Below are positions 4,688 to 40,511 of a stretch of DNA of 42,011 nt, piece by piece; position 1 is the first letter of the stretch; each line of letters starts with the position of its first letter. The translations under genes were made by a program, and so were the position numbers. The notes beneath the pieces were generated by a model. The model saw nothing but the letters and a program-made list of their open reading frames with translations, ran no database searches and was not told the origin of the DNA. The stretch lies in the NCBI GenBank assembly GCA_001628005.1, contig LUQU01000084.1, forward strand, positions 1 to 42,011. The letters run 5' to 3'. Source of the DNA: SAR86 cluster bacterium REDSEA-S09_B4. Lineage in GTDB: Bacteria > Pseudomonadota > Gammaproteobacteria > Magnimaribacterales > Magnimaribacteraceae.

Positions 4688-5251
4688 ATGGATCTACCCA
4701 GAATATATCCGATTACGCCTGAAACAGATACCTCCGAAAAACTGCTTACTGCAATTTCAAGATCAGCTTCAAATAATGTTTCTGTATTTCAATACAGAAG
4801 GAAGACTCTTGACGAATCTAAGGTTAAAGAGGAATTAGATTTGTTAGAAACTATTACTGCTGAATTCAATATATCAGTCATAATCAATTCTTATCATCAA
4901 AGTAACCTGATAAGTAGATTTTCTGGCTTACATCTAACCGGCATAGATTTAAAGGACTCAACCAAAAGACCAGTGGAAAAGAATAAATTTTTTGGCATTT
5001 CCTGTCACGACTACGAAGATATTAAGAAAGCAGAAATTTTAGATGCAGATTACATATTTCTGTCTCCGGTAAATAAAACTTCTTCGCATCAAAATCAAAA
5101 ACCTATGGGCTGGAAGAAATTCTCTGCATTAACGAAAGAAACTAAGCTGCCAGTCTATGCACTGGGTGGGTTAGGAAAAGAAGACTTATTAAAAGCTGAA
5201 GAAAATGGCGCCTATGGTATTGCTGGAATTAGCAGATTTTGGTCTTACTAA
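4688..5251 (+). CDS. Stand-alone ThiE/TenI-like domain protein (partner domain of the MutT-ThiE fusion, without Nudix part)
   Basis: The 187-residue product is a TIM-barrel TMP-synthase/TenI-like domain. Seen are FQYRRK near residue 36, GLHLTGIDL, the loop [19 protein letters not shown] and PVYALGGLG. The SPV-x-(T/K)-TSSH...GW loop resembles the C-terminal ThiE-like domain that gammaproteobacteria fuse to a MutT Nudix hydrolase at this same locus (argJ side, next to coaE/yacG). Here there is no Nudix box and no upstream room for one: argJ ends 2 bases before the ATG. The role of this domain is not established even in the fusion. True thiamine phosphate synthase activity is possible but less likely than a TenI-like role. 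Its stop interlocks with that of the opposing yacG. Confidence 0.75.
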
Positions 5252-5439
5252 TGCTTTGTTATTTCCTCTAAATCCTCTTCCGAGTCAAATAAAGAACTTC
5301 CGGCTATTTTATTTCTTTCACTAGCCCAAGATCCTAGATCTAAAAGCTGACATCTCTTCGAGCAGAAAGGTTTGTATGTATTGCCCTCTTTCCACTCAAC
5401 TGGGGTTTTGCATTGTGGGCAATTTACTTTTTTTTTCAT
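5248..5439 (-). CDS. yacG: Zinc-binding DNA gyrase inhibitor YacG
   Basis: This 63-residue protein has the paired zinc-finger cysteines CPQC and CSKRC, then the typical [16 protein letters not shown] segment of YacG. The family binds GyrB and inhibits gyrase. The acidic tail (EEDLEEI) is also common. The start ATG overlaps the coaE stop as ATGA, so the two are probably translationally coupled. The stop codon (TAG, 5250-5248 on the minus strand) overlaps the TAA of the convergent ThiE-like gene inside the four bases CTAA. Confidence 0.92.
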
Positions 5440-6029
5440 TCGACCATCTGAAGATATTTCTCATGTAACTCTTCAACTTTTTTTTCCAATTCTTCTATCG
5501 TGCCTGTATTAACCAAAACATCGTCTGCTTTTTCTAGCCTCTTCTCTCTTTCCATTTGGGCTGAAACCATTTGTTCAACTTGATCAGTAGAAACTTCATC
5601 TCTCTCTGCGGTTCTTTCAACTTGCACTTCCTTAGGCACATCAACAACCACTACTCTGGCACACATTTCTTGAGAATTGGTCTCTAACAATAAAGGTGCT
5701 ACGAATAAAGTGTAGGGGCTGGTGGATTCTGCAATTTCCTTAGCTATCTGTTCCCCTATTCTTGGGTGAAGAACAGACTCAAGCCATTTTCTTTCTGCAG
5801 CATCTGAAGCGATAATTTCTCTAAGTTTAGTTCGATCTAATTGCCCATCGCCTGCAATAATTTCTGAACCAAAATGTGATTCAATTTCTTTAAGCGTTGG
5901 CATCCCTGGTTCCACAACTGTTCTTGAAGCAACATCAGCATCTACAACCGTTATACCAAGTGAAGCGAATTTATCTGAAGCAACCGACTTGCCACTTCCG
6001 ATGCCTCCAGTAAGTCCAATAATTAACAT
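5436..6029 (-). CDS. coaE: Dephospho-CoA kinase
   Basis: CoaE phosphorylates dephospho-CoA, the last step of coenzyme A synthesis. The N-terminus [18 protein letters not shown] is a canonical P-loop. It is followed by VVDADVASR (the DAD motif), ESVLHPRIG, and the lid with [15 protein letters not shown]. The 197-residue length is normal for a bacterial CoaE. It precedes yacG with an ATGA overlap, the usual gammaproteobacterial pairing. Confidence 0.95.
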
Positions 6030-6072
6030 AGGAAGATGGTATCAGATAGAAAATGCTTTTTCTTTCAAAACG

Positions 6073-6903
6073 CTAAAGAGATTTCAAGAATTTGATAGCT
6101 TCCTCAGCAAAAATATCATTCCTGTCACCGGCTATCATGTGTGCTGCTTTTTCAATTTCTACAAATTTTGCATGACTGATCACCGACAAGAAATAGTCTA
6201 CATCTTCCATAGTAACGACATCACTTAGAGCACCTCTTATCAATAAAGCAGGAATAGTTACTTTTTCAGCAGCTTTTAATTGAAGATCAAAGTAGCCCCT
6301 ATCTCTTGAGCCCGGTCTTCTTCGAATAAATCTGGGATCCCAGTGCCAGTAATATCTTCCATCATCTTTCAATCTAAGATTCTTTTTTAATCCCTCTGGG
6401 TCTTTTGGTTGTTTTCGATGAGGTAAATAATCCGAAATAGATTTCGCTGCATCCTCTAAAGAATCAAAGCCTTGTTCACCTGATAACATGAAACTGACGA
6501 TCCGGTCTGAACCAACTGGATCTGGATAAATTCCTATATCAACCATAATAAGAGCTGTACATAAATTTGAATTAATTTCATCTCCAGCCAATGCTAAAGA
6601 AGCCATACCCCCCAAAGAAGCACCAACTAGCCTTGCTGGCTGTCCTATCTCATTAATAACAGAGACTAAATCATCTTTATAAGCTCTGATTGAATAATCA
6701 CCATCTGCGTCCCATTCACTGTCACCATGACCCCTTAAATCTAAAGCAACGGAATGGTAGCCAGCTTCCGCTAATTTTTTTCCGGTTTCTCCCCAAGCGT
6801 GTCTGGTTTGACCCCCTCCGTGCAATAAGATGACCAATTCTTGGTTATTAGAACCCCAAACGTCCGCTGCTATCTTTATGTCTCCGTGTCCTTTAAAGTG
6901 CAT
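6073..6903 (-). CDS. Alpha/beta-fold hydrolase
   Basis: This is a 276-residue soluble hydrolase. The oxyanion-hole segment is VILLHGGGQTRHAW, followed by LDLRGHGDS. The nucleophile elbow is VGASLGG with Ser96, and the catalytic His is His255 in EKAAHMIAG. The acid is probably the Asp near GALSDVV. It has no signal peptide and is therefore cytoplasmic. The substrate is unknown: related proteins include esterases, epoxide hydrolases and C-C hydrolases. The ATG at 6903 has a weak AGGA about 11 bases upstream. It diverges from the Nramp-like gene across a 77-base gap and runs toward coaE. Confidence 0.85.
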   Translation of the reverse strand: MHFKGHGDIKIAADVWGSNNQELVILLHGGGQTRHAWGETGKKLAEAGYHSVALDLRGHGDSEWDADGDYSIRAYKDDLVSVINEIGQPARLVGASLGGMASLALAGDEINSNLCTALIMVDIGIYPDPVGSDRIVSFMLSGEQGFDSLEDAAKSISDYLPHRKQPKDPEGLKKNLRLKDDGRYYWHWDPRFIRRRPGSRDRGYFDLQLKAAEKVTIPALLIRGALSDVVTMEDVDYFLSVISHAKFVEIEKAAHMIAGDRNDIFAEEAIKFLKSL

Positions 6904-24463: not shown

Positions 24464-24500
24464 TAAAAACAATTGAATCTAAATGTTATTTTAGACAATT
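24464..24500 (-). terminator. Probable intrinsic terminator of the copper amine oxidase gene
   Basis: Read on the minus strand, AATTG-TCTAAA pairs with TTTAGA-TT-CAATT around a 6-base loop, with a 2-base bulge. It is followed by GTTTTTA. The hairpin overlaps the stop codon of the oxidase gene. It is AT-rich and so only moderately strong. Confidence 0.5.
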
Positions 24501-26406
24501 AGTTTTCTTTATTTGATTTGCTGTTTCCTTTACAAGTGGGGGGGAGATTTATCGTTGGATTTTTATCAAAAAAACCGACAGGTATAAGGTGGAACCCACA
24601 ATATTCTACGGGCATTACTGGCCAATCTTCAGGTCTTGGTACATGCGTTAGACCAAAGGTATGCCACATGACCAAGTCACCATTACTTATGTCTCTGTCT
24701 TTGGAAGTAAGATCTTCTAAACCACCTTGTCCGGAATGCATTACTGGGTGAGCACCTCCAGCATATTGTTCGTCTTCATTAAATGGAGTTGCCCATAAAT
24801 TATGTTTAGCAAAAGACGCCCGTATACCTGGTGGTGAATCTGGATGGGCTAGAAGACTCGGTGTATTCCCAGGCAACAGCTTATATCCCACAGGAAGTCC
24901 TACGGAATTAATTTTTTCAGGATTTGTTACTTTCCAAACTCTACTTGAAGAAGGTGAAATATCTCTCTTGGCTTCCTTCTCCTTCTTTAAATGCGTAGTT
25001 ACATTTTTTAATTGCATGCCATTAGGATTGTCTTCACTTACAGGCAAAGCAACGACTTCACTCTCATGTAATTGATTAATACCTCCATCTAAATCCCAAT
25101 CTAACCTGACACAAAACAAATGCTGATGTAATGGTGAGACTAATTCTTCAGTAATCTTTAAGTCTTGTTCGGGGTTGTGCAGCTTTTCATCGAAAGCGCT
25201 TATACCAACTATTCCAGTAAGTTTCATTTCAACTTGAATCGTGCCATCTAAATACAGATACCAAAACATTCCGTAATCATAGTTTCCTATAGTAGAAATA
25301 GAGCTCACGACTAATCTTCTTGATCTCCTTACTTCAGTAGGAATAAAATTATTGAAATCCACATGTTTCCATTGAATTCCAAAATCTTCTTCATGAATAC
25401 AAATGGCATTCTCAATAAAATTTACAGAGCCATCAAATGTAAGAATATTTGCGTCTAAATAATGAATTTCTCCAACACAATCGCATCCCAGAGTTAAAGA
25501 ATTTGTTAAGTTTCCAAATCCGTATTCAGTTCCGTCATGAACAGCCTTCCAGCTATGCATGGGGTCTGCTGAACCATAAGGAACTACCATATCGGATAGA
25601 GATGCACGATGAAGGATAGGTCTTTCATTTAAAGAAACTTGATGCAAAACAGGGCCCTCAACTGGATGGATGGATGCTCTTAGTTGCCAACCTTCCCATG
25701 AAATTTGATTGCCTTCCACTTCAAAGCCAGTACCTTCAGGTTGAGTTATTTCAATTGGCTTAGGTTGTTCTCTAAATTCAGACTGGGACTCTGCATCATA
25801 CCTTGCATGTGCCTTGGGTACTGGGACAACACCAAAATCCTCAACACAGGTAACCTCTTTAAGAGTTAAATCAACGTGCGATATTACACCCTGTATTGGT
25901 TTTGCATACGCGTTATCTGTTTCATTTTCTTTGAGAAAAGAAATAGTTCTCATTGCTCTATGCCCTGGTTTAATGGATTCGTGTACTACTCCTCCAGCTG
26001 GCCATGGATCTATCTGGACAAGGTCTAAATTCGTGACATCCCTTTTTTTGAGAGCATCTTGATACTCTTTGTTTTGTTTGGTTAGTACAGTTGCCAAGCC
26101 AACTTCTGCGAAACTATAAGCTGCCTGAGCTTCATTAGGTAATCTTTCTAAAGCGGTTACCTGTTCCTTCTTCAGATCTATAGAAGCTACAAAACCTCCA
26201 TCTGGATTAGAATCAACTCCAATAATTTTTACAGATCTATCAAACTCTTCTCCTTCCTTATAACTCCTAACAGATTCTTTGCTTGGTTCAACTAAAGTTA
26301 CATTGATAAACAAAGTGTTTTCATCTGATTCGTCATGTGCTCTATATAAGTCAACAGCCTTGTTTATCTCATCAGCAGTCAAGCTATCTAGGGGATGTGT
26401 AGTCAT
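24499..26406 (-). CDS. Copper-containing primary-amine oxidase (TPQ enzyme), cytoplasmic
   Basis: These enzymes convert primary amines to aldehydes, ammonia and H2O2, using copper and a self-made topaquinone. The 635-residue length matches bacterial copper amine oxidases. The cofactor motif NYDY is at residues 375-378, with Tyr376 as topaquinone precursor. The active-site base is probably Asp291 in HDGTEYGFGN. Copper His ligands are His427 and His429 (LHQHLF), with a third likely in THVPRPEDWPVMP. No signal peptide is seen, so it is probably cytoplasmic, unlike periplasmic tyramine oxidase of E. coli. An N-terminal D2/D3-like region precedes the catalytic domain. Confidence 0.93.
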   Translation of the reverse strand: MTTHPLDSLTADEINKAVDLYRAHDESDENTLFINVTLVEPSKESVRSYKEGEEFDRSVKIIGVDSNPDGGFVASIDLKKEQVTALERLPNEAQAAYSFAEVGLATVLTKQNKEYQDALKKRDVTNLDLVQIDPWPAGGVVHESIKPGHRAMRTISFLKENETDNAYAKPIQGVISHVDLTLKEVTCVEDFGVVPVPKAHARYDAESQSEFREQPKPIEITQPEGTGFEVEGNQISWEGWQLRASIHPVEGPVLHQVSLNERPILHRASLSDMVVPYGSADPMHSWKAVHDGTEYGFGNLTNSLTLGCDCVGEIHYLDANILTFDGSVNFIENAICIHEEDFGIQWKHVDFNNFIPTEVRRSRRLVVSSISTIGNYDYGMFWYLYLDGTIQVEMKLTGIVGISAFDEKLHNPEQDLKITEELVSPLHQHLFCVRLDWDLDGGINQLHESEVVALPVSEDNPNGMQLKNVTTHLKKEKEAKRDISPSSSRVWKVTNPEKINSVGLPVGYKLLPGNTPSLLAHPDSPPGIRASFAKHNLWATPFNEDEQYAGGAHPVMHSGQGGLEDLTSKDRDISNGDLVMWHTFGLTHVPRPEDWPVMPVEYCGFHLIPVGFFDKNPTINLPPTCKGNSKSNKEN

Positions 26407-29131: not shown

Positions 29132-30178
29132 ATGACGAATAAAATTAAAGACGATCCCAGAATTGATAAACGACTAAAAGCTGTTTTCGGAGACATCCCG
29201 GTAGACAGTGTCATGGATTCTGTGGCTCAAACTCGTGATGAAATACTGGAAGAACAAAATTCAGAAGCAGCCCAACAAGGAAAAGATGTTATGCAGATGA
29301 TTAACAATTCTCCACATTACAAAGAAGTTATGCCTGAGGAGGGTCTGGTTACAGCTACCAAAGAATTTACTTCCCAACCGGACGGTAACACCATCAAAAT
29401 TCAATACATTAGACCTGACTCAGATGAAACATTGCCTTGCATCTACTACATTCATGGTGGAGGGATGATGGTTAGCTCTTGTTTTGATGAGCTTTATGCA
29501 GCTTGGGGAAGATGCATAGCTAGACAAGGGGTAGCAGTTGCCATGGTTGATTTTAGAAATTGCATGTGGGCTTCTTCGGCACCTGAAGTTGCTCCATTTC
29601 CAGCTGGACTCAATGATTGTGTATCAGGAATCAAATGGGTGCACGAAAATTCAGATGACTTAAATATTGATAAGGGGAAAATCGTAATAGCTGGGGAAAG
29701 TGGTGGAGGAAATCTAACTTTGGCTACGGGACTGAAACTCAACCAGGATGGAGATATAGGAATAGTTAAAGGACTTTATGCCTTATGTCCTTATATTGCA
29801 GGTTATTGGCCTTTACCCGAAAACCCTTCCTCCGAAGAAAACGAGGGGATATTGTTAAGTCTTCATTCGGAAACCAACAAGTCCTTCGGAGCAATTATTT
29901 ATGGTATCGAGGAGTATCACAATAAAAACCCACTTGCTTGGCCAAGTTTTGCCTCTGTTGAAGATGTAAAAGGACTTCCTAAAACTTATATTATCGTGAA
30001 CGAATGTGATCCATTAAGGGATGAAGGGGTAAACTTCTATCGATTGTTGCGAGAAGCTGATGTCGAAGCTCAGTGTCGACAAGTTATGGGGTCTATCCAT
30101 GGTACGGAGATTTTCTTGGGACTACCGGAAGTAAGTGATGAGACAGCGATGAGTATCGCGAATTTTGTAAAAAACTAA
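29132..30178 (+). CDS. HSL-type alpha/beta hydrolase (lipase/esterase)
   Basis: The 348-residue protein has the hormone-sensitive-lipase-family oxyanion motif YYIHGGGMM and the nucleophile motif IAGESGGGN. An acid in NECDPLRDEG and a late His in SIHGTEIF complete the triad. There is no signal peptide, so it should act on short-chain or bulky esters in the cytoplasm. AAAGGAT lies before the ATG. The stop codon interlocks with that of the convergent GST gene. Confidence 0.9.
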   Translation: MTNKIKDDPRIDKRLKAVFGDIPVDSVMDSVAQTRDEILEEQNSEAAQQGKDVMQMINNSPHYKEVMPEEGLVTATKEFTSQPDGNTIKIQYIRPDSDETLPCIYYIHGGGMMVSSCFDELYAAWGRCIARQGVAVAMVDFRNCMWASSAPEVAPFPAGLNDCVSGIKWVHENSDDLNIDKGKIVIAGESGGGNLTLATGLKLNQDGDIGIVKGLYALCPYIAGYWPLPENPSSEENEGILLSLHSETNKSFGAIIYGIEEYHNKNPLAWPSFASVEDVKGLPKTYIIVNECDPLRDEGVNFYRLLREADVEAQCRQVMGSIHGTEIFLGLPEVSDETAMSIANFVKN

Positions 30179-30900
30179 TTTCTGTCCAAATTCTTGTTTG
30201 AAGCAATGGTAGAGCCTGATGAAGCATATTGGGCTTTTCTTTCTTCACTCCACTGATCTATTTCTTCCTTCGGCACTCCATAGGCCAATCCTCTTCCTAC
30301 AGCCGGTCTTGATCTGACTCTTTCCACCCAATCAACAATTTGAGGATATTTTGTTATGTTGATTTTGCTCCATTTCCAACCCCTAACCCAAGGGTATATA
30401 GCAATGTCCGCTATCGTAAAATTATTACTACATATGAATTTATGCTTAGACAATTGACCGTCCATAACTTTGAGTAAACGATTTGCTTCAGTTCCAAACC
30501 TTTCTAAAGGATGTGACTTTAAAGATTCATCAATATCATCCATGTACCGGGTATAACTTAATTTATTACCAAAGACGGGTCCCAAATTGGCAACCTGCCA
30601 ATACAACCAAGGTAAAACTTCCCATTTCGAATGATCATTTGGCAAAAGGCTGGTTGGGTATTTTTCAGCTAGATATTGGAGGATTGCACCACTTTCCATA
30701 ATGCTAGTTTCACCGTCAATTAACACGGGAATTTTCTGATTGGGATTATGTTTAATGAATTTCTCAGTAAATTGTTCCCCTTTTTGTAGATTTATACTTT
30801 TAACTTTAATATCTGGTAGATCGACGCCTGCTTCAATTAATTCCTCCAGCATAATGTTAACTTTCCAGCCGTTAGGAGTTGGGGAAGTCCACAATTGCAT
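30175..30900 (-). CDS. Glutathione S-transferase family protein
   Basis: The 241-residue protein has a thioredoxin-fold N-terminal domain, including SPTPNGWKVNIMLEEL and NPNQKIPVLID (cis-Pro). GETSIMESGAILQYLAEKYP binds the glutathione gamma-glutamyl group. A helical C-terminal domain follows with FTIADIAIYPWVRGW. It resembles the YfcG/YghU (Nu-like) disulfide-bond oxidoreductases. Its role here may be handling electrophilic intermediates from the neighbouring oxidation genes, which is inference. Confidence 0.9.
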   Translation of the reverse strand: MQLWTSPTPNGWKVNIMLEELIEAGVDLPDIKVKSINLQKGEQFTEKFIKHNPNQKIPVLIDGETSIMESGAILQYLAEKYPTSLLPNDHSKWEVLPWLYWQVANLGPVFGNKLSYTRYMDDIDESLKSHPLERFGTEANRLLKVMDGQLSKHKFICSNNFTIADIAIYPWVRGWKWSKINITKYPQIVDWVERVRSRPAVGRGLAYGVPKEEIDQWSEERKAQYASSGSTIASNKNLDRN

Positions 30901-30923: not shown

Positions 30924-31787
30924 TTATTGGTCTTCTATTTTTAGAACTTTACATGCATTTCCGCGTAGAAACTTTGGCCAAACTTCATCTTTGAAAGTAA
31001 CATTTTGCATATCTGTCATGATCCTTTCTAATGAAAGACCTATTGGAAAATAGCCGGCATAAATTACTTTATCGGCTCCTCTAGTATTTGCGTAATCTAT
31101 AATTTCTTTTGGGTAATATTTAGGAGCAAAAGCCGAAGTGGAATAATAAAGATTTGGCCATTTCAACATCAACTTAACCGCAAGATCTACCCAGGGCTCA
31201 CAGCCATGTCGTGTAACAAAAACTAACTCAGGAAAATCGTACATTACCTTATCAATTCGCTCCACGTGTTGCGGCCACATAGGTAATCGGGGTCCGGGTA
31301 CACCGGCACAGGAAAAAATTGGAACATCGAGTTCTACACATTTGTCATAGATCGGATACATAAGTTCATCATCAATACCAACTTGAGGATCGAAACCTGA
31401 ATTAAAAGCTCCGAATGACCGCACACCAAACTCCTCGTACTGGCGCACCATGTTTCGAATACCTTCCTTACCTTTATTAGGATCAACACTCCCTTGTGCT
31501 ACAAACCGATCTGAATGGGTTTTAAGCGCTTCAAGGCTGACATCTCCACCTGCTCCAATAAGACCAATTTCTATGCCAAATCTATCCATCTCATGCAAAG
31601 TTACCGAGATGGGATCTTTGTTCCCATATAGTTCTTTAGGAACATTTTTAAACATATATTCAACCGGAAAATCCAGATCAGTGGATCCGTCTTTTAGTTG
31701 TTTGCGGATGAAATCGTATTGAGAAAAATCATTGGCTGGGAAGCCGATCATGGTATCAACTATCCCAATGCCTTTAGGCATAGTCAT
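30924..31787 (-). CDS. ACMSD-like amidohydrolase-family protein with degenerate metal site
   Basis: This 287-residue TIM-barrel protein belongs to the amidohydrolase-2 group. It has VCAGVPGPRLP-like, VFVTRHGCEPWVDLAVKL and WPNLYYSTSAFAPKYYPKE segments. The usual N-terminal HxH is absent: the strand reads GIVDTMIGFP. The late Asp of the GSDxP motif is Tyr, in IYAGYFPIG. It may therefore not bind metal in the standard way. It follows a second amidohydrolase with a 2-base gap, so they are one transcriptional unit. Enzymes of this group decarboxylate or hydrolyse ring-cleavage products. Confidence 0.85.
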   Translation of the reverse strand: MTMPKGIGIVDTMIGFPANDFSQYDFIRKQLKDGSTDLDFPVEYMFKNVPKELYGNKDPISVTLHEMDRFGIEIGLIGAGGDVSLEALKTHSDRFVAQGSVDPNKGKEGIRNMVRQYEEFGVRSFGAFNSGFDPQVGIDDELMYPIYDKCVELDVPIFSCAGVPGPRLPMWPQHVERIDKVMYDFPELVFVTRHGCEPWVDLAVKLMLKWPNLYYSTSAFAPKYYPKEIIDYANTRGADKVIYAGYFPIGLSLERIMTDMQNVTFKDEVWPKFLRGNACKVLKIEDQ

Positions 31788-31789
31788 AA

Positions 31790-33016
31790 CTATCCCTCAC
31801 TGGGTTGATTGAACAGAGCATTCCGAAAAATAACCCCGGTAGCATCAGCTGGAATTTCTTCTCGAGCTAATGGTTGATCAACTTGACTTGGTGTAGGTCC
31901 ATATTGATTGGCTAAAGGTCGTAATTTTTCTAGGTCAAAGTTGTATAGTTGAGCAGCGTTTTCACCCAGGAGCAAACGACGATCTGTTTCGGATATATCA
32001 TTAAACGTTAGACGAAGCGATTCTAGATTGTATGGAAAAGTCCCCTCATAATGGGGGTAGTCATTCCCCCAAAGGACTCGCTCTACACCAATTTTATCGA
32101 TACCATCTAGTTCTGCTTTACTGGGAAAGCTAGCTCCATACCAACAATTACGTTGAGCATATACACTGGGTAATTCTTTTAAAACCCATTCACCTTCATA
32201 ATGCATTTCTCCTATTGCTCCAAACTCTATACCTAAATGGATACCATCCAGTTGAGCTAACATCGGAGCTACCCAAGAGCAGCCCGACTCGGTAAGTATG
32301 TACTTCAACTTACTAAAGCGCTCGAATACACCACTCATCAAAAGATGACGGAAACCTGCCTGACAATAGAAAGTTACTTCTGAAATCCATAAAGCTTCTC
32401 CAACCAGACTATTGCCGTACCTAGGAGAACCTTGACCTGAATGTTGGTTTATCACAAGATCATGGTCTTGAATGGCCGCAAAAAGTTTATCCCAAGAAGG
32501 GTCGTATAATGGAGTAAGCCACTCACAATCTGGAGGAATGAGAGGTAATAACACACCGCCGCGTAAGTTTGCTTTTGCTATAAACTCAATATCCTTTACT
32601 GCCTCATCCATATCGTTGGGTAAAATCAAACCAACTCCAGCCCGCCGCTCAGGGTCTTCTGCACAAAAATCTTTGAGCCAACGATTATGAGCTCTAATAC
32701 CCTCTAAACAGAGTTTGTATTCTTCGGGCGATGGGGGTTGAGCCGTAACTATGCTTTTCTTAAAAAAAGGAGGCACCGTGTTGGGAAAGACAACCTCACC
32801 TACTACTCCTTGACTATTTTGGTCCTTGGTACGGATATCCAAATCCCAATTACGCATTTTCTTTTCCGCGTAATGTTCTTGGGATGGATTCTTATAGCCT
32901 CCTCTCCATTCATCGAATTGATCTCGATATTTAGGATCTAGATAATCCCTATATTGAGCGTGACTGCCACCGGCATGGGTGTCTGCAGTAATAAGTATGT
33001 AAGGTTCCTTGCTCAT
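31790..33016 (-). CDS. Amidohydrolase family (ACMSD-like) protein
   Basis: This 408-residue protein of the amidohydrolase-2 clan has LITADTHAGG near the N-terminus (a partial metal motif), VINQHSGQGSPRYG mid-protein, a TESGCSWV segment and LWGNDYPHYEGTFP near the C-terminus, which keeps the conserved Asp. It is therefore more likely to be metal-active than its downstream neighbour. It has no signal peptide. Possible activities are decarboxylation or C-C hydrolysis of an aromatic or ring-derived acid. It lies 47 bases downstream of the P450 gene and is probably cotranscribed. Confidence 0.88.
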   Translation of the reverse strand: MSKEPYILITADTHAGGSHAQYRDYLDPKYRDQFDEWRGGYKNPSQEHYAEKKMRNWDLDIRTKDQNSQGVVGEVVFPNTVPPFFKKSIVTAQPPSPEEYKLCLEGIRAHNRWLKDFCAEDPERRAGVGLILPNDMDEAVKDIEFIAKANLRGGVLLPLIPPDCEWLTPLYDPSWDKLFAAIQDHDLVINQHSGQGSPRYGNSLVGEALWISEVTFYCQAGFRHLLMSGVFERFSKLKYILTESGCSWVAPMLAQLDGIHLGIEFGAIGEMHYEGEWVLKELPSVYAQRNCWYGASFPSKAELDGIDKIGVERVLWGNDYPHYEGTFPYNLESLRLTFNDISETDRRLLLGENAAQLYNFDLEKLRPLANQYGPTPSQVDQPLAREEIPADATGVIFRNALFNQPSEG

Positions 33017-34414: not shown

Positions 34415-35293
34415 TTACTCAGGCGAGTAGTCTACTTCTTTTTTAATTCGTTTAGAGTGAAGCTTATTCCTCTGTTTAAGGTACTCATCTTCAACACTGC
34501 CTTCTCCATATCTATTTATTAATTCTTGTCTTGGATCAGAGGCAAAAATGTGACCTGCGCCCTTACACAACTTAAACCCTAAGATGTTTTGAAGTTCTTC
34601 AGGAAAAGTCATCATTCTTTCGGGATTAATGCCCAACATAAGGTTTTCCTGTTGTCGCATTGAACCATTGCAATAATTGATAGTTAAGGCCCATCTAATT
34701 TTATCCGTAGTATTTGCTCCTGCACCGTGGTAACAAGTGCCCACCACAAAAGCAATACTTCCTGCTGGCATTTCTAAGGAAATTGTTTTGTAGTCTTCTC
34801 CCAGGACTGGATCGTGATCCCAATTGTTACTTTCAGGAACCACTAAGGTGGCTCCGTTTTCATGAGTAAAATCAGACAGTGCCCACATAGTATTGCAAAC
34901 CAAATTGGGATGCGGCCTAGGGAATTGATATACCCCATCATCTACATGAAGCATTTGAGATTCTTCTCCGGGTCCAATTACTGCACTTCCCATAGTCGAT
35001 AAAAGAAAATCATCTCCTAATACATGGGGGAGAACTGACATCACACCTGAATGTATGGCAACTTGCTGCCATATATCAGCGTCATTTAATAAATCGAACC
35101 AACGTCTAGTTACAAAGCCTGTAAATGGTCCAGGGGGAATATCTCCTCCGGGTCTAACAGACTCCAGTCTTTCTAATTCGTTAAGAACCTGAATTCTAAA
35201 TTCGTCGTCTATCACTCCTTCCATGATTGAATAGCCTTGTTCAGCTATTTCAGAAGCGTGATTTAATATTTCTTTTTCAGACAGTTGACGCAC
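34415..35293 (-). CDS. PhyH-family Fe(II)/2-oxoglutarate dioxygenase, paired with HD protein
   Basis: The 292-residue protein has the iron triad His116-x-Asp118 (MLHVDDGVY) and a distal His189 in CYHGAGANTTDKIRW, with Arg200 placed to bind 2-oxoglutarate. The start is GTG at 35293. It begins 3 bases after the stop of the HD gene, with no good ribosome-binding site of its own, so translational coupling is likely. In known organophosphonate pathways, a PhyH-type enzyme (PhnY) hydroxylates next to phosphorus and an HD oxygenase (PhnZ) then cleaves the bond. The arrangement here matches that, but the substrate is inferred only. Confidence 0.9.
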   Translation of the reverse strand: MRQLSEKEILNHASEIAEQGYSIMEGVIDDEFRIQVLNELERLESVRPGGDIPPGPFTGFVTRRWFDLLNDADIWQQVAIHSGVMSVLPHVLGDDFLLSTMGSAVIGPGEESQMLHVDDGVYQFPRPHPNLVCNTMWALSDFTHENGATLVVPESNNWDHDPVLGEDYKTISLEMPAGSIAFVVGTCYHGAGANTTDKIRWALTINYCNGSMRQQENLMLGINPERMMTFPEELQNILGFKLCKGAGHIFASDPRQELINRYGEGSVEDEYLKQRNKLHSKRIKKEVDYSPE

Positions 35294-35296
35294 AAG

Positions 35297-35836
35297 CTAG
35301 GCTTGTTGGGGTGCTCCAAAAAATTGTTCAATCAGAGGTTTAAAACTTTCTAAGCTATCTACCTCAAATTCAGGATCAAAAGCCTGTTGGTCCCAGTCAT
35401 CAGTGAATTCAGTGGCTTTGGCATACCAAGGCTCATCCTCGTATTGTTTTCGTAGATCCGTTGGCTTATCCATGTAGTGATAATAATGCTCACCCTGAAA
35501 ATCTTGGTGTGTCCTAATAATATGGTAAGCGTCTTCGCTGACATATGGCTTAATAATTTCTGCACAGATTTCACCGTGTCCAATAACACTAATCACCTTG
35601 CCGATATCATGTATTAAGCTGATTAAAACCATTTCATCACTGGCATTAGCATTTCTTGCCATCGTGGCTGTTTGTAAGCAATGGTGAAGTTGGTTTACAG
35701 CAAATCCCCCTGTAAAACCCTCTAGTTGTTCAAGCATTCCGATGACTCTATTTGGCATATCCACTATATGCGGAAGGTGTTCAGCACCAATATGCTCCCA
35801 ATCCTCTTTAGTACCTTTGTCCATTCGAGTAAACAT
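35297..35836 (-). CDS. HD-domain protein, candidate PhnZ/TmpB-like mixed-valent diiron oxygenase
   Basis: With the start at 35836 (AAAGGGGG eight bases upstream) the product has 179 residues. The frame goes on to 35923 but adds a non-conserved stretch. HD ligands are spaced as His52 (QLHHCLQTA), His76-Asp77 (LIHDIGK), His87 (IGHGEI), His110 (RTHQDFQG) and an Asp in TDDWDQQAFDP. That six-ligand set and the VNQL-x-H-x-LQ segment recall PhnZ and related HD oxygenases, which split C-P bonds, rather than ordinary HD phosphohydrolases. A plain phosphohydrolase remains possible. It is the first gene of a pair with the PhyH dioxygenase. Confidence 0.8.
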   Translation of the reverse strand: MFTRMDKGTKEDWEHIGAEHLPHIVDMPNRVIGMLEQLEGFTGGFAVNQLHHCLQTATMARNANASDEMVLISLIHDIGKVISVIGHGEICAEIIKPYVSEDAYHIIRTHQDFQGEHYYHYMDKPTDLRKQYEDEPWYAKATEFTDDWDQQAFDPEFEVDSLESFKPLIEQFFGAPQQA

Positions 35837-35864
35837 AAAAAAACCCCCTTTAAAAACTGACTTT

Positions 35865-35978: not shown

Positions 35979-37085
35979 ATGGCTAAGGCATTAGAGGGAT
36001 TAAGTGTAGTAGATATTAGCGGTTCTGTTAGTACTGAGTATTGTTCTAAAATTTTTTCTGATTACGGTGCTGAAGTCATAAACCTTGAACCAGAATCAGG
36101 TTTTGAGACCCGCAAAATTCCTCCCTTTATAAGTGGGAAAAACGATAGTGCCATGCATGCTTATCTCAATACAAATAAGCTTAGCATCGTTAGAGACAAG
36201 CTCGAAAAAGGGTCTATTAAGGAGTTGGTTTCTAATGCTGACTTAGTTCTAAGCAATGGAGAGAACTCAGAACTATCTGCATACTCTAAAGGCGTTTTGT
36301 CTGAAATTAGTTGGTACGGCAAAGACGGAGATTACGAAAACTTCGTCGGCACAGATGCTCAATGTTTTGCTTTAAACGGAATGCTTCGCGGTCTCGGTGC
36401 AATTGAAGGACCGCCTATTATCCCAACCGGTTATCAAGCTCAAATATTAGGCGGAATGGCCGCCTTCGCAGGAAGTTTAGGGCAAGTTTTAGGCTTTGAA
36501 TTGGGAAACAATAAAATCCCTACTTTGTTGGAGACAAGTATCTTTGAAACTTGTCTGTGTCTTACTGAGGTGGGGGCCGTTTCATTTTTCAATACAGGAT
36601 TGGAAGGAAGAAGGCTGGGTGTTAATAGGTTTGCTCCTACTTACCCTTTGGGTGTTTTTCCTTGTAAAGAAGGATGGATAGGCTTAACGGTTCTTACCCC
36701 CAGTCAATGGCATGCCTTTTGTAAGTTACTAAACATGGAGCAATTTGCTTTTGTTCCTGAATACCAAACTTCTTTAGGAAGATTACAGGCCATAGAGATA
36801 ATAGAGCCTGTTATTCAAGAAAGTTTATTAACTTTTTCTTCCAAAGATCTCTTTTACAAAGCCCAAGAGCAAAAAATACCTTTGGCAAGAGTTCCAACTA
36901 TGGAAGAACTTCTAAATGTAGACCAGTTTTTAGAACGAGAAGCCTTCACTTCAGCAATTTTGCCAGATGAAACTAGGTTAACAGTTCCTAGTATCCCTTT
37001 TAGATTAATGGATACCCCCCCTTCCTTAGGAGGCAACGTTGCCAAATTAGGAGAACATACCGAGAGTTTTATCTATGACAAGTAA
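35979..37085 (+). CDS. CaiB/BaiF-type class III CoA-transferase subunit (first)
   Basis: This 368-residue protein of the CaiB/BaiF family begins ALEGLSVVDISGSVSTEYCSKIFSDYGAEVINLEP, the typical nucleotide-like CoA-binding start. The following segments (GLTVLTPSQWHAFC, EYQTSLGRL) keep the interlocking-ring fold. The catalytic acid region is divergent: the aligned segment reads LLETSIFETCL, with a Glu where formyl-CoA transferase has Asp. It overlaps the next gene by 11 bases, so the two are probably heteromeric partners. Family members move CoA between carboxylic acids such as succinate and an aryl or alkyl acid. Confidence 0.85.
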   Translation: MAKALEGLSVVDISGSVSTEYCSKIFSDYGAEVINLEPESGFETRKIPPFISGKNDSAMHAYLNTNKLSIVRDKLEKGSIKELVSNADLVLSNGENSELSAYSKGVLSEISWYGKDGDYENFVGTDAQCFALNGMLRGLGAIEGPPIIPTGYQAQILGGMAAFAGSLGQVLGFELGNNKIPTLLETSIFETCLCLTEVGAVSFFNTGLEGRRLGVNRFAPTYPLGVFPCKEGWIGLTVLTPSQWHAFCKLLNMEQFAFVPEYQTSLGRLQAIEIIEPVIQESLLTFSSKDLFYKAQEQKIPLARVPTMEELLNVDQFLEREAFTSAILPDETRLTVPSIPFRLMDTPPSLGGNVAKLGEHTESFIYDK

Positions 37086-38310
37086 TCGCCCTCTACACGG
37101 AATACGTATTATTGACTTAAGCATGGGTTGGGCAGGACCTTTGGCTGCAAGGAACTTAGCGGACTTGGGTGCAGATGTAATCAAAGTTGAGAGTTGTGAA
37201 AACTTTGACTGGTGGCGAAGCTGGGAAGCAACCCAGGAATGGATTGATGAGGATGGTGCAGAAAAATCACCTGCTTTTAATTCAATCAATCGAAATAATA
37301 GAAATATCACTCTGGATTTATCTAATCCTAAGGGAAGGGAATTGCTTCTTAGATTAGTCAGAACAGCTAATGCAGTAATGGAAAATTTCTCTGGAAGTGT
37401 TTTGCCTAAACTAAACCTCAGTTACGACGTCTTTAAAAAAGAAAAGGAAGACATTATTTTACTTTCCATGCATGCCTTTGGATCAACTGGACCTTGGAAA
37501 ATGTTTAGAGCATATGGCTCTACGGTTGAACAATCATCCGGATTACCTCATGTAAATGGCGTAGCATCAGATCCCCCTATGATGCACCACATAGCTTATG
37601 GGGATGCGGTAGCAGGTTTAAATGGAGTTTCAGCTCTTTTGGTCGCATTAAGACACCAGGCAAAGACAGGCAAGGGACAATTCATAGACTTGTCACAAGT
37701 TGAATCACTCTTTCCATTGGTTGCGCATGGTATTACTGAATTTACAGCCAATGGTAAAGAACCTTCAAGAAATGGAAATAAGTCTAAATTTTTTGCTCCT
37801 AATGGAGTGTATCCTTGCGAGGGAGAAGACAAATGGATTGTTATTCAAGTTTTAAATGAAGATCAGTGGTTGAGTTTTCAGAAAGTGGTTGGTGCACCTT
37901 TAAAAGACTATGGGGATCTTAAGGATAGACTCTCAAGGCTTGAAGATCTTGATAAAGCAATCAGCGAATGGACCTCTTCGAAGGAATCTCAAAGACTAAT
38001 GTATGTTTTGCAGGCAGCTAAAATACCTGCAGCATCGACCCACACCATGCCTACCCTGCTTAATGATCCACATCTTAATTCTAGAAACTTTTGGCAATGG
38101 CTAGACCGAGCGGTAGTCGGCAATCAACCAAACCCTTCAGCTCCTTTTAGAGTTAATGGAAACAGGCTTCCTATTAACACTCCTGCCCCTACTCTTGGAC
38201 AACACAATCAAGAAGTACTTACAGAAATCCTAGAATTGAATCAAACGGAAATAGATCAACTTGAAGAAATCGGTATTATAGGAACCAAGCCTAAAATGCC
38301 CTCTTCATAA
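37075..38310 (+). CDS. CaiB/BaiF-type class III CoA-transferase subunit (second)
   Basis: The 411-residue protein has LHGIRIIDLSMGWAGPLAARNLADLGADVIKVE, NRNNRNITLDLSNPKGRELLLRLV, GFGSTGPW-like AFGSTGPW, and GKGQFIDLSQVESLF, all strong CaiB/BaiF marks. It starts inside the end of the first subunit (ATG 11 bases before the end of that stop), implying tight translational coupling. It would activate an acid as a CoA thioester, probably for the hydratase-type enzymes encoded nearby. It ends 4 bases before the stop of the convergent PhyH gene. Confidence 0.9.
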   Translation: MTSNRPLHGIRIIDLSMGWAGPLAARNLADLGADVIKVESCENFDWWRSWEATQEWIDEDGAEKSPAFNSINRNNRNITLDLSNPKGRELLLRLVRTANAVMENFSGSVLPKLNLSYDVFKKEKEDIILLSMHAFGSTGPWKMFRAYGSTVEQSSGLPHVNGVASDPPMMHHIAYGDAVAGLNGVSALLVALRHQAKTGKGQFIDLSQVESLFPLVAHGITEFTANGKEPSRNGNKSKFFAPNGVYPCEGEDKWIVIQVLNEDQWLSFQKVVGAPLKDYGDLKDRLSRLEDLDKAISEWTSSKESQRLMYVLQAAKIPAASTHTMPTLLNDPHLNSRNFWQWLDRAVVGNQPNPSAPFRVNGNRLPINTPAPTLGQHNQEVLTEILELNQTEIDQLEEIGIIGTKPKMPSS

Positions 38311-38314
38311 AATT

Positions 38315-39511
38315 TTATTTTGTTTTAGCTGACTCTCTGGCTCTTTTCACTGCTTCCCTTACAGTGTATTTCTTCTTCAGTTCCTTTTTGGAAGATTTGC
38401 CTGACAATTCTCTGACCCTTTCATACTCTCCCTTATCGTAGGCTGTTCTAAATTGCTTAATGCTGCCCCATTGATCTCCTACTCTGCCAGGAGCCCCTAA
38501 ACCAAAGCCTTCGATGGTTGCGCCATACGTCAAAGCTTGTAATCCGATTCTATGTAATAGTTTTGGACTGGCATTTTCTAAAACATCAGGCGCAACTGAA
38601 ATTACCCAATTTTCTTGGGTTCGAGTCCATGCTTTTACATTACTCATGGTAGCTACAAACCTTTGTTTATCGGTTCTATTAACACCCGTGCCATGCAACA
38701 TTCTTCCGTCAAAAAGCATTACGGTTCCGGCCTTTGCCTCTAAATTAATGGCTGGAGGAAGTTTACCTACCTTACCACCACTCCCTGCTTCAATAAGTAT
38801 CCTATGACTGCCTGGAATAACTAGAGTCCCACCATTTTTTTCATTAATGTCTTGCGGAATGTACATCGTATTAAACAAAGCAGGTGCTTCTTCAGTAACC
38901 CATGGAAGCAAGGGTCCTTGATCGATATGCAAACCTTGTGGATACCCGCCAGGGTCAGATCCGTTGGAAAGAAAGCTGTGACATATCCAACCCTTACCCA
39001 GAGTTTCATCCATGATTTGTTCAATAACAGGGCCTGCTTGTACCGCTTCAGTATTTTGTTCGATACATTGAGCAAAGACCTCTCCTTTATTGATTAAAGT
39101 ATTTATGTATTGCCCTGAAGGAGTTGGTTGGTCAACGCCTGCTAATCTCTCACCTTCGGCTTGATCAAGTAGCCGATTGAGAAAACGATCGCACTGTTCC
39201 TTTGACATAGCATCTTCAATTAAACAAAAACCCCATTTCTTGATGTCCTTTCTCATTTGTTTAATGTCTTTGGTGGCTTTGGGTAAATCAAATTCCTTCC
39301 AATAATCATGTTTCCTGGCAACGGTGGTATCCCAGTACATACCTGTACCCCATTCAAGTGGTTTTTTAATATCCGGTGGCATTAGCCAGGGGTTATTCTC
39401 GAAAATAGAACGGAAAGGTTCTCCAGATCTTAGGAAGTCTCTATAAATCTGTTGGTCGTGAGGAGAATTTTCTTCTACATACTCCTCGGTAAACTCTATT
39501 GGTACTTTCAT
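38315..39511 (-). CDS. PhyH-family Fe(II)/2-oxoglutarate dioxygenase (398 aa)
   Basis: The longest of the three PhyH paralogues. The iron ligands are His195-x-Asp197 (GLHIDQGPLLPW) and His273 (DGRMLHGTGVNRTDKQR), with Arg284 as the likely 2-oxoglutarate anchor. An N-terminal extension of about 90 residues precedes the core, and a basic tail ends the protein. The substrate is unknown. It lies 43 bases downstream of another PhyH gene on the same strand, and so is probably in its operon. Confidence 0.92.
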   Translation of the reverse strand: MKVPIEFTEEYVEENSPHDQQIYRDFLRSGEPFRSIFENNPWLMPPDIKKPLEWGTGMYWDTTVARKHDYWKEFDLPKATKDIKQMRKDIKKWGFCLIEDAMSKEQCDRFLNRLLDQAEGERLAGVDQPTPSGQYINTLINKGEVFAQCIEQNTEAVQAGPVIEQIMDETLGKGWICHSFLSNGSDPGGYPQGLHIDQGPLLPWVTEEAPALFNTMYIPQDINEKNGGTLVIPGSHRILIEAGSGGKVGKLPPAINLEAKAGTVMLFDGRMLHGTGVNRTDKQRFVATMSNVKAWTRTQENWVISVAPDVLENASPKLLHRIGLQALTYGATIEGFGLGAPGRVGDQWGSIKQFRTAYDKGEYERVRELSGKSSKKELKKKYTVREAVKRARESAKTK

Positions 39512-39554: not shown

Positions 39555-40511
39555 TTAATCTATCAACTTTTGAGATCTCGCCATTTCATCAGAATATGTC
39601 TCTGGTGCAGTATTCAAATCTTCAGACCAATCTTGCCACATGTTGTCTTGGGGTGGTTTGGCCCTATTTTCATCTAAGTCTTTTTTTATAAAGTCTCCCA
39701 GAACTGCAAGTCTCATTTTGTTGGAATAGTTGTGGCCTGCCATATGTGCTAGTCGATGATGCCAGAGGACCACATCTCCTTCTGAGCCGCAACAATCAAC
39801 AGGTTTGGTATCTTCCATCACCTTTTTAATTTCCTCTTCATAGGCCTCTGACTGAATAATTCCTTTATAAGATGGCAAGTGCTCGTAATAAGCAATTCTT
39901 GGTTGGTCATATTGCATTTGAAATGTTGGATAAAGTCTTTTATGTGAACCTGGCCAAACCTTGAAAGCTCCTCCATTGGGAAGTACATCATCGATTAATC
40001 CAACCAGACTTAAGTTAAAAGGATGCCCATCACTATGACAAAAGTCAGGTTCTTTTTCTTTGTCCCCATACGGGAGAGTTGCGTAGATACCCCTAGCCCC
40101 CTCATTATCCAAGGCTGGATCAACAGGGCCTCCTGGCCAAGCTGCTCCATGTTGACCCATGGTTTTCCCTCCTACCTTCGGTTTAACTAAAGTATCTTTG
40201 CCTAAAAGCTCTTCTGCTATTTGTTGTAAGGCCTCTGAATAGACAAGATCAATCATTAACTGATCAGTCCCTATTGATCTAAGTTGCCACTTATATCCTT
40301 GCCGAAGATTTGTTACATCTTCTTCCAAATCATTTTCAATAAATGGGCCTACATGAGTCGAAGGGTCTTCTCTCTTAATATTCGTTTCTTTGGGTAAAGA
40401 TGACCAAAGTAAATCACGTGCTTTCTCACAAAGGTCAGGGTCAAGAATCTTTGGAAGTATTATGTATCCATTGACTTTAAAAAAAGAAAGTTGTTCTTGA
40501 TTGAGGATCAC
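39555..40511 (-). CDS. PhyH-family Fe(II)/2-oxoglutarate dioxygenase (318 aa), GTG start
   Basis: The iron ligands are His159-x-Asp161 (FCHSDGHPFN) and a distal His256 within HHRLAHMAGHNYSNKMR, with Arg267 as the likely 2-oxoglutarate anchor. LPNGGAFKVWPGSH is a typical PhyH core strand. The start is GTG at 40511, and the stop of the upstream membrane-protein gene is inside it (GTGA), so the two are translationally coupled. This coupling suggests its substrate may come through, or be held in, the membrane. Confidence 0.9.
   Translation of the reverse strand: MILNQEQLSFFKVNGYIILPKILDPDLCEKARDLLWSSLPKETNIKREDPSTHVGPFIENDLEEDVTNLRQGYKWQLRSIGTDQLMIDLVYSEALQQIAEELLGKDTLVKPKVGGKTMGQHGAAWPGGPVDPALDNEGARGIYATLPYGDKEKEPDFCHSDGHPFNLSLVGLIDDVLPNGGAFKVWPGSHKRLYPTFQMQYDQPRIAYYEHLPSYKGIIQSEAYEEEIKKVMEDTKPVDCCGSEGDVVLWHHRLAHMAGHNYSNKMRLAVLGDFIKKDLDENRAKPPQDNMWQDWSEDLNTAPETYSDEMARSQKLID

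Follow-up and report, generated by a model that had tools for sequence, protein, structure and literature searches.

A SAR86 gene pair encoding a putative HD-domain oxygenase of the FQ-HD family and a PhyH-type dioxygenase

The window, a 42,011-nucleotide stretch of DNA from a SAR86 cluster bacterium, carries on its minus strand a gene (35297..35836) for a 179-aa HD-domain protein, P0001, which sequence, profiles, fold and alignment mark as a putative mixed-valent diiron oxygenase of clade I of a family that we call FQ-HD. Translation is assigned to the ATG at 35836, with the stop codon at 35297; the longest mechanical ORF would add 29 codons, and all 53 relatives share residues F2 and M5 of the 179-aa version. 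A Shine-Dalgarno-like sequence (AAAGGGGG, 35844..35851, minus strand) lies 7 bases ahead of this start codon. Three bases (CTT) separate the HD stop codon from the GTG, at 35293, that begins the next gene (34415..35293, minus strand), whose stop codon ends at 34415 and whose product, P0002, is a 292-aa Fe(II)/2-oxoglutarate (2OG) dioxygenase of the PhyH type. P0002 matches PF05721 with 82.6 bits (cut-off 22) and retains H116-x-D118, H189 and the distal R200, placing it within the PhyH Fe(II)/2OG family. Inspection of the sequence before the P0002 GTG revealed no Shine-Dalgarno motif, in agreement with the original prediction of a dioxygenase gene that follows the HD gene after 3 bases and lacks a clear ribosome site, and the short gap without such a site suggests that translation of the two genes is coupled. 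Each protein has many relatives and a match to a curated family, which shows that the two ORFs do not exist by chance.

The same-strand run continues with possible operon members: a cytochrome P450 gene (33064..34335), 79 bases downstream of the PhyH gene, and two genes for Amidohydro_2 (PF04909) proteins (31790..33016 and 30924..31787), before it ends with a gene whose product appears GST-like by inspection (30175..30900); the gaps from the P450 gene onward are 47, 2 and 23 bases. The segment 30922-33353, comprising the 3' part of the P450 gene and both amidohydrolase genes, is 89.6% identical at the DNA level to a contig from another genus (G005), whereas three same-genus genomes contained nothing that matched the first amidohydrolase at E 1e-60. 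We therefore regard the P450-amidohydrolase block as an accessory region, one that has probably been exchanged. Divergent from the HD gene are two plus-strand genes for CoA-transferase family III proteins (35979..37085 and 37075..38310); in two genomes of the same genus a counterpart of the first likewise adjoins the HD gene. Further PhyH-type proteins are encoded at 38315-39511 and 39555-40511, within 6 kb of the HD-PhyH pair, and the former has a 70% relative near an HD gene of another genome (L016, G004). A copper amine oxidase type protein is encoded at 24499-26406 (764 bits; NCBI primary-amine oxidase cut-off, 651). A promoter scan returned fewer sites than shuffled sequence did, and a terminator scan gave results close to those from shuffles, so we drew on neither.

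HD-domain oxygenases have the published motif H...HD...H...H...D (PMC8177086), and P0001 contains H52, H76, D77, H87, H110 and D149, the full six-ligand diiron-type set that had been predicted for it. All six are invariant in 95 of 95 FQ-HD representatives and line up with their counterparts in 12 TmpB/Phn-HD proteins, with no variation in any of the 107 aligned sequences; MAFFT alignments were chosen for this comparison because hhalign profile alignment misplaced the fifth ligand of TmpB. P0001 matches the HD profile PF01966 with 27.7 bits and the MIOX profile PF05153 with 26.0 bits (cut-off 25), the latter as a partial match that spans only model positions 57-96 of 249. In Foldseek searches, the predicted model of P0001 (pLDDT 95) was closest to PhnZ (E 1.6e-6), TmpB (2.5e-5) and MIOX (0.022), with hydrolases at 0.55 or worse, and VIA structure comparison gave the same order (Z 18.7, 18.0 and 12.6, respectively), with HD hydrolases and all other structures at or below 9.1. 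The overlap with the PhnZ and TmpB folds covers ~150 residues. MIOX, PhnZ and TmpB are the three HD-domain oxygenases counted in a 2020 review of HD-domain proteins (PMC8177086). The fold ranking, in which PhnZ and TmpB stand nearest and phosphohydrolases far below, gives good support to the class “HD oxygenase” for P0001, though a fold does not show activity.

Judged by sequence, P0001 falls in a discrete family that lacks a curated name, here FQ-HD. A profile built from 13 relatives separated family members (at least 187 bits) from other HD proteins (at most 43 bits) across 369 gammaproteobacterial genomes, of which 28 contain the family (30 were tallied and 2 weak matches left out); among 398 Pseudomonadota genomes sampled, 59 contain it. 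Orthologues of the window's HD gene occur at ~65-77% identity in many SAR86-type genomes. A quick tree has three main clades, and since many of its forks are open we used only the large groups: clade I contains the window HD gene with those of SAR86/SAR92-type bacteria and Acidimicrobiales, most of the dioxygenase-paired HD genes fall in clade II, and clade III includes the window genome's own second FQ-HD paralogue (C1:40404-40931, 35% identity). That paralogue (G000; L002, L170) is flanked by genes for a GH3 glycosidase and an FAD-linked oxidase, and at four clade III loci (L104, L195, L206 and L214) a class II aldolase/adducin-type gene lies 10-38 bases from the HD gene. Literature searches, whose coverage did not extend to most subscription journals, returned no paper on FQ-HD and no biochemistry for any member; FQ-HD is a widespread and apparently unstudied offshoot within a small family of enzymes.

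The residues around the ligands differ between FQ-HD and the phosphonate-type enzymes. At positions 42, 45, 80, 114, 146 and 153 (window numbering), all 12 TmpB/Phn-HD sequences have Y, E, H, K, R and K. From their conservation in these 12 sequences, those outside the YxxE loop are presumed to bind the phosphonate substrate. None of the 95 FQ-HD representatives carries the TmpB/Phn-HD residue at position 45, 80, 114, 146 or 153. In their place, 93/95 have F or Y at position 45, all 95 have Q at position 114 and F at position 153, and neither R at position 146 nor H at position 80 occurs in any of the 95. Position 80, the third residue after the HD pair, is instead D in 75/95 and K in 17/17 clade I members, and a lysine in this place is also found in MIOX (HDLGK). 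With the glutamate at position 45 absent from every representative, the YxxE loop before the first ligand histidine, typical of PhnZ and TmpB (PMC8177086), is gone from the family (0/95 in the alignment).

Pairing with 2OG dioxygenases is a feature of the family at large. Among the FQ-HD genes in the set of 95 representatives that have a same-strand upstream neighbor, 16 of 54 are directly preceded by a 2OG dioxygenase gene, compared with 3 of 520 other genes at the same loci (Fisher p 3e-15), a count that relies on dioxygenase profiles built from the neighbors of HD genes and in which related loci are partly dependent. The upstream-dioxygenase trait takes at least 14 changes on the FQ-HD tree. 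Partners are of the PhyH or TauD/butyrobetaine-dioxygenase type (ten confirmed by Pfam as PF05721 or PF02668), the gaps between partner and HD gene range from -35 to 57 bases where gene ends are clear, and a divergent LysR-type gene often stands beside the paired loci. The recurrence of a 2OG dioxygenase gene ahead of FQ-HD genes fits a “hydroxylate, then cleave” logic, so the two-oxygenase logic of the original prediction is borne out by gene order in the family, although the exact pair in the window is not conserved.

At four FQ-HD loci (L106, L144, L145 and L226) a choline-type binding protein is encoded alongside, a hint that quaternary amines are substrates for some members, and on plasmid pF045_1 genes for a TmpA-like dioxygenase, an FQ-HD protein, a choline-type binding protein, choline dehydrogenase and aldehyde dehydrogenase form a single run (L106:2857-8519) that is a candidate quaternary-amine catabolic cluster. 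At L226, which lies outside clades I and II, the gene for a TauD protein (5592-6833) overlaps by 4 bases that of a non-TmpB HD protein (5017-5595), and the TauD protein exceeds the NCBI cut-off for TmpA (422.5 vs 400); either the TmpA label may cover too much or the L226 HD protein may act on the same phosphonate, and given this score some FQ-HD relatives may have a phosphonate substrate.

Most SAR86, SAR92 and Acidimicrobiales members of clade I have no dioxygenase gene adjoining the HD gene, and their neighbors differ by lineage (GMC oxidoreductase with peptidase S51, alanine dehydrogenase, serine acetyltransferase, DAO-type FAD oxidoreductase, or CoA transferase), so the idea of a single conserved clade I operon was dropped. 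In Acidimicrobiales, a gene for the DAO-type FAD oxidoreductase is found near the clade I HD gene at nine loci (L052, L054, L055, L057-L059, L063, L065 and L067), with a CoA-transferase gene near several; a link of this oxidoreductase to the phosphonate protein HpnW is weak (21.6 bits vs 285.1).

The original prediction likened the pair to the PhnY/PhnZ and TmpA/TmpB systems and proposed cleavage of a C-P or related bond, perhaps in a new substrate. A PhnZ/TmpB-like enzyme that cleaves the C-P bond of a new phosphonate would account for PhnZ and TmpB being the closest folds to P0001, for the same two-gene logic and for the TmpA-like dioxygenases beside some relatives, one of them above the TmpA cut-off. 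However, all 95 representatives lack the YxxE loop as well as the H, K, R and K of phosphonate-type enzymes, and comparison with curated sequence models, while it ranked HD oxygenases best, left P0001 far below every phosphonate-family cut-off (36.8 of 214.6 bits for TIGR03276, 31.8 of 300 for PhnZ1 and 25.1 of 300 for TmpB). The window's own genome (88% complete, and other transporters exist) yielded no match to the phosphonate-binding protein PF12974 and no detectable TmpB or Phn-HD gene, and P0002 matched no NCBIfam model at E up to 1, those for PhnY and TmpA included. In addition, ten sampled genomes have an FQ-HD gene besides one for TmpB/Phn-HD, indicating that these are not one gene under two names. 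C-P cleavage by P0001 is therefore disfavored, and we give it very little credence; with the phosphonate-type pocket residues missing, P0001 probably cuts another bond. It is also improbable, if less so, that P0001 is an ordinary HD phosphohydrolase acting on a nucleotide or phosphomonoester. The PF01966 match and the annotation of relatives as “phosphohydrolase” or “HD domain-containing protein” agree with that assignment, as does the presence of a diiron site in some HD hydrolases (PMC8177086), but both structure comparisons put hydrolases far behind PhnZ, TmpB and MIOX, HD oxygenases are also the top-ranked curated sequence models, and a phosphohydrolase would have no evident reason to be paired repeatedly with 2OG dioxygenases.

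A further question is whether P0002 works with P0001. The original prediction named a lack of conserved pairing in related genomes as evidence against itself, and in part this is what we found: the HD orthologues mostly have other neighbors, and 34 family genomes contain no orthologue of P0002 (best identity, 41%). Among 70 loci of P0001 orthologues surveyed for a conserved PhyH neighbor, those of the SAR86 type have none except one PhyH of another subfamily, and in two same-genus genomes (G001 and G003; L074 and L077) the match breaks off within the HD gene, after residue 164 in one and 74 in the other, apparently because the contig ends there, which hides the downstream side from this survey. 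Nor is P0002 a close relative of the clade II PhyH partners, and it is encoded downstream of its HD gene, whereas the family's partners are upstream. P0001 might act alone, like MIOX, on a substrate that is already hydroxylated, with the PhyH gene belonging functionally to the P450/amidohydrolase block and lying next to the HD gene by chance. This possibility, a sub-case of our preferred explanation without the P0002 link, has about one chance in three in our estimation. It agrees with the scarcity of dioxygenase neighbors in clade I, with the MIOX-like lysine after HD in all 17 clade I members (the rest of the family has mostly Asp, and TmpB/Phn-HD has His) and with the accessory nature of the downstream block, P0002 being as patchy in its distribution as the first amidohydrolase. 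The suggested translational coupling of the two genes argues against it, as does a PhyH gene 47 bases upstream of a clade I HD gene in G004 (L171), although the product of that gene is only 30% identical to P0002 and not an orthologue. That P0002 feeds P0001 is a tentative proposal, to which we would give a little less than even odds.

Alongside the observed ligands, predicted fold, missing phosphonate-type residues and family-wide gene pairing, we favor the reading that P0001 is an FQ-HD oxygenase acting on something other than a phosphonate, with a probability of roughly 0.6. P0001 would resemble MIOX, PhnZ and TmpB in using O2 and a mixed-valent Fe(II)/Fe(III) center, its diiron content and activity being presumed from these resemblances. 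Its substrate, not a phosphonate, would carry a hydroxyl group, and the bond cleaved oxidatively, most likely C-C, would adjoin the hydroxylated carbon. In many FQ-HD relatives the hydroxyl could plausibly be added by the 2OG dioxygenase encoded immediately upstream, and in the window genome P0002 may do so for P0001. The original prediction is partly supported: it named the right kind of enzyme and a two-gene logic that is real, while its phosphonate reading and pair-specific conservation are unsupported. As a common, discrete family that has the fold and ligands of HD oxygenases, a different pocket and many links to 2OG dioxygenases, FQ-HD is a target for the discovery of a new cleavage reaction. 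“PhyH plus HD” need not signal phosphonate use, a point that matters for surveys of marine phosphorus cycling.

For P0002, the nearest solved sequences are SwnH1 and SwnH2, fungal PhyH-type dioxygenases (61-66 bits), which are distant and whose substrate is not transferable to P0002. MIOX resembles P0001 in fold and, with its HDxGK lysine, resembles clade I in particular, and its profile match to P0001 just passes the cut-off, but solved MIOX chains have 250-289 aa, compared with 179, and the match is local. Phn-HD (TIGR03276) is the top curated sequence match by score, although over 40 residues only, and it coexists with FQ-HD in the same genomes. TmpB shares the fold and the six ligands with P0001, and its partner TmpA is mirrored in the TmpA-like TauD dioxygenases beside some FQ-HD relatives; the TmpB pocket residues, however, are replaced in P0001, and the partner in the window is of the PhyH type and downstream of the HD gene. 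PhnZ, which acts with PhnY, differs from P0001 in the same pocket residues, is 24% identical to it in the structural alignment and gives local sequence matches over ~50 residues, yet it is the closest solved fold (2.9 Å over 153 residues), and it has in common with P0001 and the FQ-HD family the same six ligands and a 2OG dioxygenase partner.
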